Below, one piece after another: positions 40,742-45,783 of a DNA stretch of 64,000 nt (the first letter of the stretch is position 1; each line of letters starts with the position of its first letter). Position numbers and translations under genes: made by a program. Origin of the DNA: Nocardioides sp. S5 (GTDB lineage: Bacteria > Actinomycetota > Actinomycetes > Propionibacteriales > Nocardioidaceae); the NCBI RefSeq assembly GCF_017310035.1, contig NZ_CP022296.1:992001-1056000 (forward strand), written 5' to 3'. Below the pieces are notes generated by a model, which was not told where the DNA came from, made no database searches, and worked only from the letters and a program-made list of their open reading frames with translations.

Positions 40742-41359
40742 GTGAACAGTCCCGCCCGCATCGTCGTCCTGGTGTCCGGTGCCGGCACCAACCTGCAGGC
40801 CCTGCTCGACGCCTGCACCGAGTCGTCGTACGGCGCGCGCGTGGTCGCCGTCGGCGCCGACCGCGACGACATCGAGGGCCTGGCGCGGGCCGACCGGGCG
40901 GGGGTGCCGACCTTCGTCGCCAAGGTCGGCGACTACACCTCGCGCGAGCACTGGGACCGGGCGCTGGGCGACAAGGTGGGGGCCTTCGAGCCCGACCTCG
41001 TCGTGTCGGCCGGCTTCATGAAGCTGCTGTCCGCGGACTTCCTCGAGCGCTTCCTCACCCTCAACACCCACCCCGCGCTGTGCCCGGCCTTCCCGGGCAT
41101 GCACGGCCCGCGCGACGCCCTCGAGCACGGCGTCAAGGTCACCGGCGCGACCCTCTTCGTCGTCGACGCCGGGGTCGACACCGGCCCGATCGTGGCGCAG
41201 GTGCCCGTGACGGTGGAGCAGGACGACGACGTCGCCTCGCTCCACGAGCGGATCAAGACCGCCGAGCGCGCGATGCTCGTCGACGCGGTCGGCCGCATCG
41301 CCCGCGACGGCCTCTCGGTGGAGGGCCGTCGGGTTCGCATCGGGGCCGGTCCTCGGTAG
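40742..41359 (+). CDS. purN: Phosphoribosylglycinamide formyltransferase
   Basis: This is a 205-residue GAR transformylase that moves a formyl group from 10-formyl-tetrahydrofolate to GAR in purine synthesis. The start RIVVLVSGAGTNLQALLDAC carries the phosphate loop, LTLNTHPALCPAFPGMHGPR the catalytic Asn-His of the usual NIHPSLLP motif (here NTHPALCP), and VVDAGVDTGPIVAQ the essential Asp. Length is standard. It ends just upstream of the riboswitch of purH, 104 bases before the purH start. Confidence 0.95.
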   Translation: MNSPARIVVLVSGAGTNLQALLDACTESSYGARVVAVGADRDDIEGLARADRAGVPTFVAKVGDYTSREHWDRALGDKVGAFEPDLVVSAGFMKLLSADFLERFLTLNTHPALCPAFPGMHGPRDALEHGVKVTGATLFVVDAGVDTGPIVAQVPVTVEQDDDVASLHERIKTAERAMLVDAVGRIARDGLSVEGRRVRIGAGPR

Positions 41360-41364
41360 TCTGC

Positions 41365-41440
41365 TGCCACACGACTGGCGCAGGTGGGCCACCACCAGGG
41401 AGTGACGCGCGAGGACATCGAACGCCTGGGTGCCTCGACT
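41365..41440 (+). ncRNA. ZTP riboswitch (pfl RNA) in the purH leader
   Basis: The region carries the conserved pfl features: ACGACTGGCG (41371-41380), a short hairpin GGTGG / CCACC, the AGGGAG-type junction at 41397-41402, then a linker and the signature CGCCTGGGTGCC (41423-41434) that closes the pseudoknot. ZTP riboswitches bind ZTP or ZMP, which builds up when 10-formyl-folate is short, and turn purine and folate genes on. CCTCG (41433-41437) can pair with CGAGG (41452-41456) over the ribosome site of purH, a possible expression platform. Detected by eye, not by covariance model. Confidence 0.8.
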
Positions 41441-41462
41441 CAATCACCATCCGAGGAGTCCC

Positions 41463-43067
41463 GTGTCTTCTGAGTCCGCCCCGACCACCGCGGAGCGCAT
41501 CGCCATCCGCCGAGCGCTCGTCTCCGTCTACGACAAGACCGGCCTCGACGACCTCGTCCGCGGCCTCCACGACGGGGGCGTCGAGCTCGTCTCCACAGGC
41601 GGCTCGGCCGCGCTGATCGAGTCGCTCGGCCTGCCGGTGACCAGGGTCGAGGACCTCACCGGCTTCCCCGAGTGCCTCGACGGCCGGGTCAAGACGCTGC
41701 ACCCGCGCGTGCACGCCGGCATCCTCGCCGACCGCCGCCTCGACTCCCACGTCGCGCAGCTCGAGGAGCTCGGCGTCGAGCCGTTCGACCTCGTCGTGAG
41801 CAACCTCTATCCCTTCACCCAGACCGTCGCCTCCGGCGCGAGCCCCGACGAGTGCGTCGAGCAGATCGACATCGGCGGGCCGTCGATGGTGCGCGCCGCG
41901 GCGAAGAACCACCCCAGCGTCGCCATCGTCACCTCGCCCGCGGCGTACGGCGACGTGCTCGCCGCCGTGCCCGCCGGTGGCTTCACGCTGGCCGAGCGGC
42001 AGCGCCTGGCCGCCGAGGCGTTCGTGCACACCGCGACGTACGACGTCCACGTCGCCTCCTGGATGGGCAACGTGCTCACCGACACCAGCGAGGGGTCGGG
42101 CTTCCCGGCCTGGATGGGCGCCACGTGGAGCAAGGAGGCGGTGCTGCGCTACGGCGAGAACCCCCACCAGGGTGCCGCGCTCTACTCCAACGGCTTCCTC
42201 CCCGAGGGGCCCGGGTTGGCCCAGGCGAGGCAGCACCACGGCAAGGAGATGTCCTACAACAACTACGTCGACGCCGACGCTGCCCGCCGGGCGGCGTACG
42301 ACTTCGACGAGCCGGCCGTGGCGATCATCAAGCACGCCAACCCCTGCGGCATCGCCATCTGCTCCGACGACGTGCCTGACCCGATCTCGGTGGCCCACCG
42401 CCTGGCGCACGAGTGCGACCCGGTCAGCGCCTTCGGCGGCGTGATCGCGACCAACGTGCCGGTCTCGGTGGCGATGGCCCAGCAGGTCGCGGAGATCTTC
42501 ACCGAGGTGATCGTCGCCCCGGGCTACGAGGACGGTGCGGTCGAGGCGCTCCAGGCCAAGAAGAACATCCGCGTCCTCGAGTGCCCGCCCCTCACGCGCG
42601 GCGGCGGCGAGATGCGCGCGATCTCGGGCGGGCTGCTGCTGCAGGCCCGCGACGTGATCTCCGCCGAGGGCGACGACCCGTCGACGTGGACCCTCGCGAC
42701 CGGCGAGGCCGCGTCCGACGAGGTCCTTGCCGACCTCGCCTTCGCCTGGCGCGCCTGCCGCGCGGTGAAGTCCAACGCGATCCTCCTCGCCTCCGGCGGC
42801 GCGTCCGTCGGCGTCGGGATGGGGCAGGTCAACCGCGTCGACTCGTGCCGCCTCGCGGTCGAGCGTGCGGGGGAGCGGGCCGCCTCGGCCGTCGCCGCCT
42901 CCGACGCCTTCTTCCCCTTCGCCGACGGCCCTCAGATCCTCATCGACGCCGGCGTGAAGGCCATCGTCCAGCCCGGCGGCTCGGTGCGCGACGCCGAGGT
43001 GGTCGCAGCCTGCGAGGCGGCCGGCGTGACGATGTACCTCACCGGCACGAGGCACTTTTTCCACTAG
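41463..43067 (+). CDS. purH: Bifunctional AICAR transformylase / IMP cyclohydrolase
   Basis: This 534-residue enzyme makes the last two steps to IMP. The N-terminal cyclohydrolase domain has [20 protein letters not shown] (near 20), [11 protein letters not shown] and [11 protein letters not shown]. The C-terminal transformylase has [25 protein letters not shown] (catalytic Lys-His) and the final [17 protein letters not shown] and GTRHFFH. The GTG at 41463 has GAGGAG 6-11 bases upstream and lies directly after the ZTP riboswitch; an in-frame GTG at 41430 would be inside the riboswitch core. folD follows. Confidence 0.96.
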
Positions 43068-43096
43068 GAGGAGCGAAGCGACTCCGCGAGTGGAAA
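43058..43096. terminator. Hairpin over the purH stop codon
   Basis: TTTCCACT and AGTGGAAA form an 8-base outer stem with an inner GGAG/CTCC pair. The stop codon TAG is in the left arm. There is no T-tract after the hairpin; it may act as an RNA stabiliser or intrinsic terminator. Confidence 0.4.
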
Positions 43097-43178
43097 GGTC
43101 GAGTGCGCCCGCGACCGACGAAGGAGGTCGCGACGGCGTGTATCGAGACCCGACCGCCGGAGGCGAAGCGACTCCGCG
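43067..43178. repeat. Intergenic repeat block between purH and folD
   Basis: GCGAAGCGACTCCGCG occurs at 43073-43088 and again at 43163-43178. Between them CGCGACC (43110) and GGTCGCG (43126) form a hairpin whose flanks read GGTCGAG and CGAGACC. A 14-base part, GGAGGAGCGAAGCG (43067-43080), recurs inverted at 62673-62686. The block looks like a dispersed extragenic repeat. Confidence 0.55.
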
Positions 43179-43214: not shown

Positions 43215-44060
43215 GTGACGGCACAGACCCTGGACGGCGCAGCGACGCTGCGGACCATCAAGGCGGAGCTGGCGCAGCGCGTCGCCGCGCTCAAGGAGCG
43301 GGGGGTCGTCCCCGGCCTCGGCACCGTGCTGGTCGGCGACGACCCCGGCTCGCACTGGTACGTCGGCGCCAAGCACAAGGACTGCGCCGAGATCGGCATC
43401 ACCTCGATCCGGCGCGACCTGCCCGCGACGGCGAGCCAGGCCGAGGTCGAGGCGGTCATCGACGAGCTCAACGCCGACGACGCGTGCACCGGCTTCATCG
43501 TGCAGCAGCCGACCGGCCTCGACGAGTTCGCCCTGCTCTCGCGGGTCGACCCTCACAAGGACGTCGACGGCCTGCACCCGATGAACCTCGGCAAGCTGGT
43601 GCTGGGGGAGGCGGGTCCGCTGCCCTGCACCCCGGTCGGGGCGATCGAGCTGCTGCGCCGCCACGACGTCGCCATCGCCGGCGCCGAGGTGGTCGTGGTC
43701 GGTCGCGGCCTCACCGTCGGGCGTCCCCTGGGCCTGCTGCTGACCCGCCGGTCCGAGAACGCCACCGTCACGCTGTGCCACACCGGCACCGTCGACCTCG
43801 CTGCGCACGTGCGGCGCGCTGACATCGTGATCGCCGCCGCCGGCGTGCCCGGCATCATCACCTCCGACATGGTGAAGCCGGGTGCCGCGGTCCTCGACGT
43901 CGGGGTCTCCCGCGTCGAGGGCAAGGTCACCGGCGACGTGGACCCGGGCGTGTGGGACGTGGCCGGCTGGGTCTCGCCCAACCCCAAGGGCGTGGGGCCC
44001 ATGACGCGAGCGATGCTGCTGAGCAACATCGTCGAGATCGCCGAGAGGTCCGTCGCCTGA
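43215..44060 (+). CDS. folD: Bifunctional methylene-THF dehydrogenase / methenyl-THF cyclohydrolase
   Basis: The 281-residue enzyme makes 10-formyl-tetrahydrofolate from methylene-THF with NADP, the cofactor used by PurN and PurH upstream. Landmarks are [17 protein letters not shown] (active-site Tyr and Lys), [28 protein letters not shown], the Rossmann loop [20 protein letters not shown] and [17 protein letters not shown]. The VQQPTG variant replaces the common VQLPLP. The start is GTG. The next gene begins 1 base after the stop. Confidence 0.95.
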
Positions 44061-44476: not shown

Positions 44477-45727
44477 CGGTCGTTGCAACTTTGGTCATGC
44501 TGCTTGTTGCTCGAGTAGTTGATTGAGGGCCTGTGCTGGCGTGCGCATCTCGAGGGTGGGCCGGGGTCTGGCGTTGAGTGAGTCCGACGCCTTTTGGAGG
44601 TCCTCGACAGTGAATTGGCGTAGATCCACGCTCTTGGGGAACCAGTGGCGCAGCAGCCGGTTGGTGTTCTCGTTGGTGCCGCGCTGCCACGGTGAGTGCG
44701 GGTCGCAGAAGTAGACCGGCATCTTCAGGTCGGTCTGGATCCGCGTGTACTGGGTCATTTCGGTGCCGCGGTCCCAGGTCAGCGAGCGACGGAGGTGCTC
44801 GGGCAGTTGACCCATCTCACGGATCATCGCCTCTGCGACTTCCTCGGCTGTGTGGCGCCCGGGCAGGTGCAGCAAGATCGTGAACCGGGTCGAGCGTTCG
44901 ACCAGGGTCCCGATCGCTGAACGGGAGTACGGGCCCACGATGAGGTCGCCTTCCCAGTGCCCAGGCACTGCACGGTCAGCCACCTCGGCCGGCCGGTCGC
45001 TGATGGTGAACGCCTTGCTGTACGGGTTCCCGCTGCCCGGGCCTGCTCGGCCACGGGTACGACGCTTGGCGCGATGGGTGGACAACTGTTTGTGCAGGTC
45101 AGTGCGTAGTTGGCCACGGCCTTGGACGTATAACGCCTGGTAGATCGTCTCGTGGCTCACCCGCTCATTCTGGCCTCCGCCCTCGGCTTTGAGGGTGGCC
45201 GCGATCAACCCGGGCGACCAGCCGGCGTCCATCCAGCCCTCGATGCGCCGACACAGCTCGAGGTTGTCGAGCTTGAACTCCTTGGGCCGACGCCGCGCCC
45301 ACCATGCCTTGAAGTGCGCCACCGCTGCCACGTAGCGGCCGTTGGTGGTCTTGTTGCGAGCCACCTCACGGCTGACGACCGACTTGTCGCGACCCAACGC
45401 CACCGCGATCGTCGTGAGGAAGTCACCACGACCCAGGCCGTACTCGATGACGCGCCGCTCCGGCAGTGTCAGGAACCGTCCCGGCGTCACGTCTACTGCC
45501 GGACCGGCCAGCAGTCCGCCGATCTTGCCCTTGGCAACCTCAACATCCATGCCGACAGCCTGCCGCCACCACCGCGTGGACGAACCGACCCCGGCACCGA
45601 CCTCGATGACCGCGGCTGTCAGCGACAGACCATCGACACAGACCAGCTCATAGAACCGGTCCCGCATCGAAAGATCATGAACGAATCCCATTGCACCGCT
45701 TCCTTTCAAGAAGCGTTGCAACGACCG
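44477..45727. mobile_element. IS30-family insertion sequence
   Basis: A 1251-base element bounded by perfect 13-base inverted repeats, CGGTCGTTGCAAC (44477-44489) and GTTGCAACGACCG (45715-45727), and carrying one intact transposase gene. I find no short direct target duplication at the inner ends. It lies between the convergent DUF3017 and mdh genes, so it interrupts no gene. Confidence 0.85.
44495..45691 (-). CDS. IS30-family transposase
   Basis: The 398-residue transposase has an N-terminal helix-turn-helix (FLTLPERRVIEYGLGRGDFL, then IAVALGRDKSVVSREVARN at about residues 71-110), a second region WSPGLIAATLKAEGG, and the DDE catalytic domain: Asp in GHWEGDLIVG, Asp in LTWDRGTEM and Glu in WQRGTNENTNRLLRHWFPK. 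It cuts and joins the element ends. The frame is intact and the start ATG at 45691 gives the family-length protein. It is likely active, or was recently. Confidence 0.93.
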   Translation of the reverse strand: MGFVHDLSMRDRFYELVCVDGLSLTAAVIEVGAGVGSSTRWWRQAVGMDVEVAKGKIGGLLAGPAVDVTPGRFLTLPERRVIEYGLGRGDFLTTIAVALGRDKSVVSREVARNKTTNGRYVAAVAHFKAWWARRRPKEFKLDNLELCRRIEGWMDAGWSPGLIAATLKAEGGGQNERVSHETIYQALYVQGRGQLRTDLHKQLSTHRAKRRTRGRAGPGSGNPYSKAFTISDRPAEVADRAVPGHWEGDLIVGPYSRSAIGTLVERSTRFTILLHLPGRHTAEEVAEAMIREMGQLPEHLRRSLTWDRGTEMTQYTRIQTDLKMPVYFCDPHSPWQRGTNENTNRLLRHWFPKSVDLRQFTVEDLQKASDSLNARPRPTLEMRTPAQALNQLLEQQAA

Positions 45728-45783
45728 TATGACTTCGCCGGCTGCAGAACCTGTCCCACGCACCGCTCGGATGCGTCAGTGCC

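Follow-up and report, generated by a model that had tools for sequence, protein, structure and literature searches.

The short interval between purN and purH of Nocardioides sp. S5 raises the question of whether it encodes a functional ZTP riboswitch and, if so, which of the surrounding genes such an element controls and at what level. The initial annotation of the window (the whole 64 kb stretch of DNA that was analysed) had proposed a ZTP riboswitch at this position, with translational control of purH and with purN, purH and folD belonging to one circuit. The features concerned are as follows.

40742-41359 (+): purN (PF00551, E 3.8e-48), stop codon TAG at 41357-41359; the upstream gene, probably outside the control of this switch
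41334-41339 (+): weak -35-like element TTCGCA, 4/6 matches to TTGACA, 17 bases 5′ of the -10-like box
41357-41362 (+): -10-like box TAGTCT, bases 1-3 of which are the purN stop TAG
41369, about +/-2 (+): probable transcription start, A41369, seventh base past the box
41361-41438 (+): ZMP-ZTP aptamer, Rfam RF01750
41370-41372 (+): P1 5′ strand CAC, pairing with GTG 41402-41404 in 3 uninterrupted pairs
41373-41380 (+): core piece GACTGGCG, checked base by base
41377-41380 (+): GGCG of the conserved core, predicted pseudoknot partner of CGCC 41423-41426
41383-41396 (+): P2 hairpin, GGTGG 41383-41387 with CCACC 41392-41396, from the Rfam alignment and folding
41398-41404 (+): core piece GGGAGTG, checked base by base
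41410-41419 (+): P3 5′ side, with outer CGAGG 41410-41414, bulged A41415 and inner CATC 41416-41419
41423-41430 (+): core piece CGCCTGGG, checked base by base
41429-41437 (+): P3 3′ side, with inner GGTG 41429-41432 and outer CCTCG 41433-41437, the latter also the candidate anti-ribosome-site strand
41437-41460 (+): alternative hairpin, GACTC 41437-41441 with GAGTC 41456-41460, also covering the ribosome site
41453-41458 (+): purH ribosome-binding site GAGGAG, recognised from the sequence, 4 bases 5′ of GTG 41463-41465
41463-43067 (+): purH (PF01808, E 1e-108, and PF02142), the likely controlled gene
43215-44060 (+): folD (PF00763 and PF02882), after a 147-base gap behind purH

Judged from its sequence, the element is a genuine and ordinary ZTP/ZMP riboswitch before purH, the ligand presumably being that of the class. 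A cmscan search of the 64 kb window returned RF01750 (ZMP-ZTP) at 41361-41438 on the + strand with 42.2 bits (E 0.0015), where the gathering score is 39, and this was the sole RNA family to reach its gathering score. The match spans model positions 1-86 of 86, and its E value is 1.2e-5 when the search is confined to 41200-41700. Genome-wide, the ZTP search gave a single match above the cut-off, with the runner-up of 13 matches (E <= 10) at 21.4 bits. Actino-pnp RNA was considered and dismissed (13.9 bits versus 47.7).

The architecture agrees with this assignment. The pfl core motifs reported earlier are present base by base, and the P1-J1/2-P2 and P3 domains are recognisable in the sequence, with GGCG and CGCC able to pair; such a pseudoknot is described as a feature of the ZTP class (PMC10907184). 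The P3 duplex is predicted at -13.6 kcal/mol. The aptamer has purN on its 5′ side and purH-folD on its 3′ side, thus standing in the leader of a purine and one-carbon folate gene, with purH immediately 3′ and folD after it. The Pfam domains bear out all three gene names and place the gene of a DUF3017 protein among the neighbours. The motif had been said to end about 25 bases before purH; the RF01750 match stops 24 bases short of the GTG at 41463. The two strands on which translational control had been argued, CCTCG 41433-41437 and CGAGG 41452-41456, both exist as claimed. A second CGAGG inside the aptamer (41410-41414) and the -10-like box had gone unmentioned. The paper on the pfl motif lists purH among its five most common targets (PMC2864571), and the sensing of ZMP/ZTP was confirmed by Kim et al. 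in 2015, according to a review (PMC7266159). Both its class and its target gene are already known, and the aptamer adds one more member.

The riboswitch is conserved across the genus. Among 71 same-genus genomes, the present one included, 66 hold a match above the cut-off, a further genome reaches 38.5 bits and the other 4 lack any significant match. All searches of individual genomes taken together gave 94 of 116 above the cut-off, and 115 were above it in an evenly drawn sample of 296 genomes from the class. From the genus, 70 regions were fetched, three of which lay below the cut-off (28.3 to 29.2 bits) and were excluded, later to be used as negatives; the resulting set comprises 68 leaders, including that of the window. 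A PurH start motif lies downstream in 65/68, and these 65 were taken for the pairing tests described below. By eye, the remaining three precede folD (L024) or purH (L062 and L070). The genome that holds L024 (G004) has its folD-like gene, identified by eye, behind a second ZTP aptamer, in addition to one before purH (L097). In other families of the order, two ZTP aptamers (L106 and L109) precede what appears by eye to be the start of a metallophosphoesterase-like gene; that its product acts on Z nucleotides is a guess.

The sequence immediately 5′ of the aptamer bears on where the RNA begins. When the 68 leaders are aligned on GACTGGCG, the pattern TANNNT is found in every one of them, at offset -16 (43 leaders), -17 (24) or -21 (1), and it reads TAGNNT in 55. 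Over 1240 alternative fixed offsets upstream, the same pattern reaches a maximum of 7/68 with a mean of 0.06. In 19 leaders bases 1-3 of the box are the purN stop codon, and in 10 the stop starts at the final base of the box; in a further 34 the stop precedes the box by 1-60 bases, and 5 leaders have a doubtful or unparsed stop. Since the position of the stop varies relative to the box, the box is not merely a product of the stop codon. A -10-like box is also found in 81/81 wider relatives, ahead of several kinds of gene. This count combines 70/71 by script, the exception (L143) being positive once its anchor was corrected, with 10/10 by match coordinates for the loci whose core the script had not located; several loci per species are possible in the set, which is biased toward high-scoring matches. 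Upstream control windows carry the pattern in 29/1916. Overall, the box accompanies 149/149 examined true matches and 0/3 of the sub-cut-off same-genus matches.

The commonest spacing from the box to the outermost pair of P1 is 7 bases. P1 itself is short: it has 3 pairs in the window and in 54/68 same-genus leaders. In the wider set, the distance of the box rises with the length of P1 (Spearman 0.65, n 71, the P value being uncorrected for relatedness), as measured with two registers and one mismatch allowed, settings chosen after a first measurement had been seen. That first measurement, in which the register was wrong for some aptamers, gave 0.10. Within the genus, where P1 hardly varies, the correlation is 0.16 (P 0.19). 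Both the spacing and the link to P1 length would follow if a -10 element set the transcription start where P1 begins. The outer P1 pairs of the Rfam model are partly mismatched in the window, which would be expected if the bases 5′ of 41369 are untranscribed. A strict sigma-70 scan found no promoter. The -35 element is at best weak: 15/68 leaders reach 4 of 6 matches versus 84/1360 control sites reaching 4 or more, and since it sits in codons of purN its conservation may be coding.

The aptamer appears to have its own promoter, the -10-like box of which shares bases with the purN stop, and transcription probably begins near 41369, where the first bases of the aptamer lie. With a promoter of its own at the end of purN, the switch probably does not control purN in cis, and the earlier inclusion of purN in the controlled circuit is probably wrong. 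The likely target of control shifts to purH, perhaps with folD, and away from purN. The box also predicts transcription start sites and offers a cheap additional check for ZTP riboswitches in GC-rich actinobacteria, given the 149/149 and 0/3 above. The titles and abstract openings of those papers on ZTP riboswitches that the literature searches listed contain no mention of the promoter-aptamer arrangement, which is not proof of its being unreported.

The four same-genus genomes lacking a significant match (G047, G054, G070 and G003; purH loci L110-L113, in that order) show what the locus looks like when the switch is missing. Their purH loci contain no ZTP aptamer by cmscan even at E <= 1, and no TANNNT occurs in the 100 bases upstream of purH. 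In all four, the end of purN and the start of purH overlap as ATGA (three by script, L112 by eye). A PurH tree of 72 rows, built without L062, L070 and the intended outgroup L148 (motif missing), places the riboswitch-less rows in two positions. Three branch off close to the base of the genus, the riboswitch-bearing L096 being nested among them, and L110 lies deep within riboswitch-bearing rows. The three outgroup rows carry the riboswitch since they were chosen from its matches, and so are no test of the ancestral state; two of them sit on long branches. The branching of the tree was used, and group statistics, which compared riboswitch-less rows with outgroups only, were set aside. At least two separate gain or loss changes are needed, with loss the simpler reading for L110. 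The genus thereby supplies naturally occurring pairs in which one member carries the switch and the other lacks it. With somewhat better than even confidence, we propose that aptamer and -10 box form one inseparable cassette in this actinobacterial class. RNA would begin at base 1 of P1, the position of the promoter would limit the length of P1, and both parts would be gained and lost together. In the genus of the window, this cassette would swap with the ATGA coupling of purN and purH, making co-translated genes separately controlled.

The level at which the switch acts was approached through the pairing of the strands around P3. CCUCG 41433-41437 can pair with CGAGG 41410-41414, forming P3, or with CGAGG 41452-41456 at the ribosome site. 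Across the 65 leaders, the segment following P3 is complementary to the ribosome site, and the predicted duplex is stronger within a species than between species (-11.1 vs -9.4 kcal/mol). In a swap test, the P values of which are uncorrected for relatedness, 0/20000 permutations were as good as the true arrangement for the 65 leaders and 2/20000 for 30 non-redundant leaders (<0.86 similarity). The whole of P3 gave 0/20000 and 38/20000 in the same two sets. The outer helix of P3 alone was no better than swapped partners (6966/20000 and 14954/20000 as good). In the small clade of the window, whole P3 passes with 6/720 permutations, the true order included, on six sequence types hand-picked from ten rows. 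At least half of the ribosome site lies within the predicted pairing in 60/65 leaders, and the two predicted helices have at least 3 bases in common in 61/65. Set against the mean of shuffled segments, 20/65 leaders are lower by more than 2 standard deviations. The pairing in the window is by itself unremarkable, with 180/2000 shuffles as good.

Equilibrium folding, which covers neither the energy of the pseudoknot nor folding during transcription, gave no consistent direction. With the aptamer enforced, and counting shifts above 0.5 kcal/mol, the ribosome site opens in 23/65 leaders and closes in 25/65; the mean change, 0.29, falls within or only slightly above the swapped controls (-0.18 to 0.22). 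The window folds the opposite way, the cost of opening its ribosome site rising from 1.8 to 5.0 kcal/mol. In isolation, the extended P3 hairpin is predicted at -11.0 kcal/mol versus -4.8 and -5.9 for the ribosome-site hairpins; being the more stable, P3 would win at equilibrium even without ligand. The alternative pairing of GACUC 41437-41441 with GAGUC 41456-41460 is worth -5.9 kcal/mol alone and -2.3 once P3 takes CCUCG. When 33 bases of purH are included, the fold pairs the leader with the start region of purH. In one fold of the window, the GAGGACAT-like aptamer bases 41412-41418 can pair with the purH start at 41464-41470, a start that differs in relatives. No terminator-like site was found in 41000-41700, and no GC-rich hairpin with a T run lies over P3. 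The initial claim of translational control is thus partly supported. The preference of the post-P3 segment for its own ribosome site and the empty terminator search speak for a candidate platform at that site, and the shuffle result for the window and the folding without consistent opening of the site speak against it. As folding shows no such opening, the direction of switching rests on knowledge of the class, from which an ON switch would be expected.

These results can be set against other readings of the locus. That the match is a chance or decayed sequence with no working riboswitch is highly improbable: its score is merely 3 bits above the cut-off, but the core is the same at GACT in all 68 same-genus leaders, the aptamer is kept before purH and the modest score agrees with the genus-wide short P1. 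The initial annotation implied an intercistronic riboswitch inside a purN-purH-folD transcript, in which the aptamer would not be the 5′ end of the RNA and ribosomes finishing purN at 41359 would sit on the beginning of P1. The aptamer does begin only a few bases past the purN stop, the purN-purH order is retained, with overlapping genes, in genomes that lack the switch, and the strict promoter scan was empty. An operon-internal element would nevertheless leave unexplained a -10-like box at every one of the 149 true matches, including aptamers before other genes, and the disappearance of the box together with the aptamer; we regard it as unlikely.

A true ZTP riboswitch whose target is transcription instead of translation, working through Rho or a non-canonical terminator, seems slightly less likely still. 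In clostridial members, P3 is indeed invaded by a terminator through which the switch acts (PMC10085676), and folding revealed no clear switch at the ribosome site. Against this stand the lack of a terminator-like site in 41000-41700 and the reach of the complementary segment to the ribosome site, at least half of which it covers in 60/65 leaders.

The reading that we favour, and hold to be fairly probable, is a ZTP/ZMP riboswitch at the 5′ end of a separate purH transcript, perhaps one of purH-folD, acting as a translational ON switch. The promoter at the end of purN (box TAGTCT) would start the RNA near 41369, so that the aptamer forms its 5′ end. A shortage of 10-formyl-THF would lead to the accumulation of ZMP/ZTP, which would bind the aptamer. 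With ligand bound, P3 would be held, with CCUCG 41433-41437 paired to CGAGG 41410-41414; the retention of CCUCG by P3 would leave the purH ribosome site open and allow PurH to be made. Without ligand, the ribosome-site CGAGG 41452-41456 or the GACUC/GAGUC pairing would capture the strand and translation would drop. This scheme joins the computed family membership, the conserved box and, over the genus as a whole, the closer fit of the post-P3 segment to the ribosome site of its own leader than to exchanged sites, to a start site, a ligand, an ON direction, a switching event and a co-transcription of folD that we infer; folD is perhaps in the same transcript as purH.

In comparison with known members of the ZMP-ZTP class (pfl motif, RF01750), the element is alike in its covariance-model score above the cut-off and in its purH target (PMC2864571). 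It differs in having a 3-pair P1 at the probable RNA start, no terminator found and a candidate platform at the ribosome site. A 2026 paper took 187 terminator-bearing members as the starting point of its ZTP covariation model (PMC13273304). In the pfl switch of Clostridium beijerinckii, the terminator is reported to invade P3 (PMC10085676, PMC10907184). P3 would likewise be contested in the window between the aptamer and a downstream strand; the invader there is a transcription terminator, whereas the candidate here is the ribosome site, unconfirmed by equilibrium folding. When a Pectobacterium switch was fused translationally to lacZ in Pseudomonas aeruginosa, expression is reported to go up with trimethoprim and to need an intact aptamer (PMC10117056). 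The ON response of that Pectobacterium switch is the one expected for the window, although that switch belongs to another phylum.

Two further observations concern the region downstream. The 16-mer GCGAAGCGACTCCGCG occurs at 43073-43088 and 43163-43178, so that both of its genomic copies lie within the 147 bases that separate purH from folD, where they may form a hairpin. Beyond folD and the DUF3017 gene, a transposase-like ORF (rve integrase core, HTH_38) is located at 44495-45763 on the - strand.
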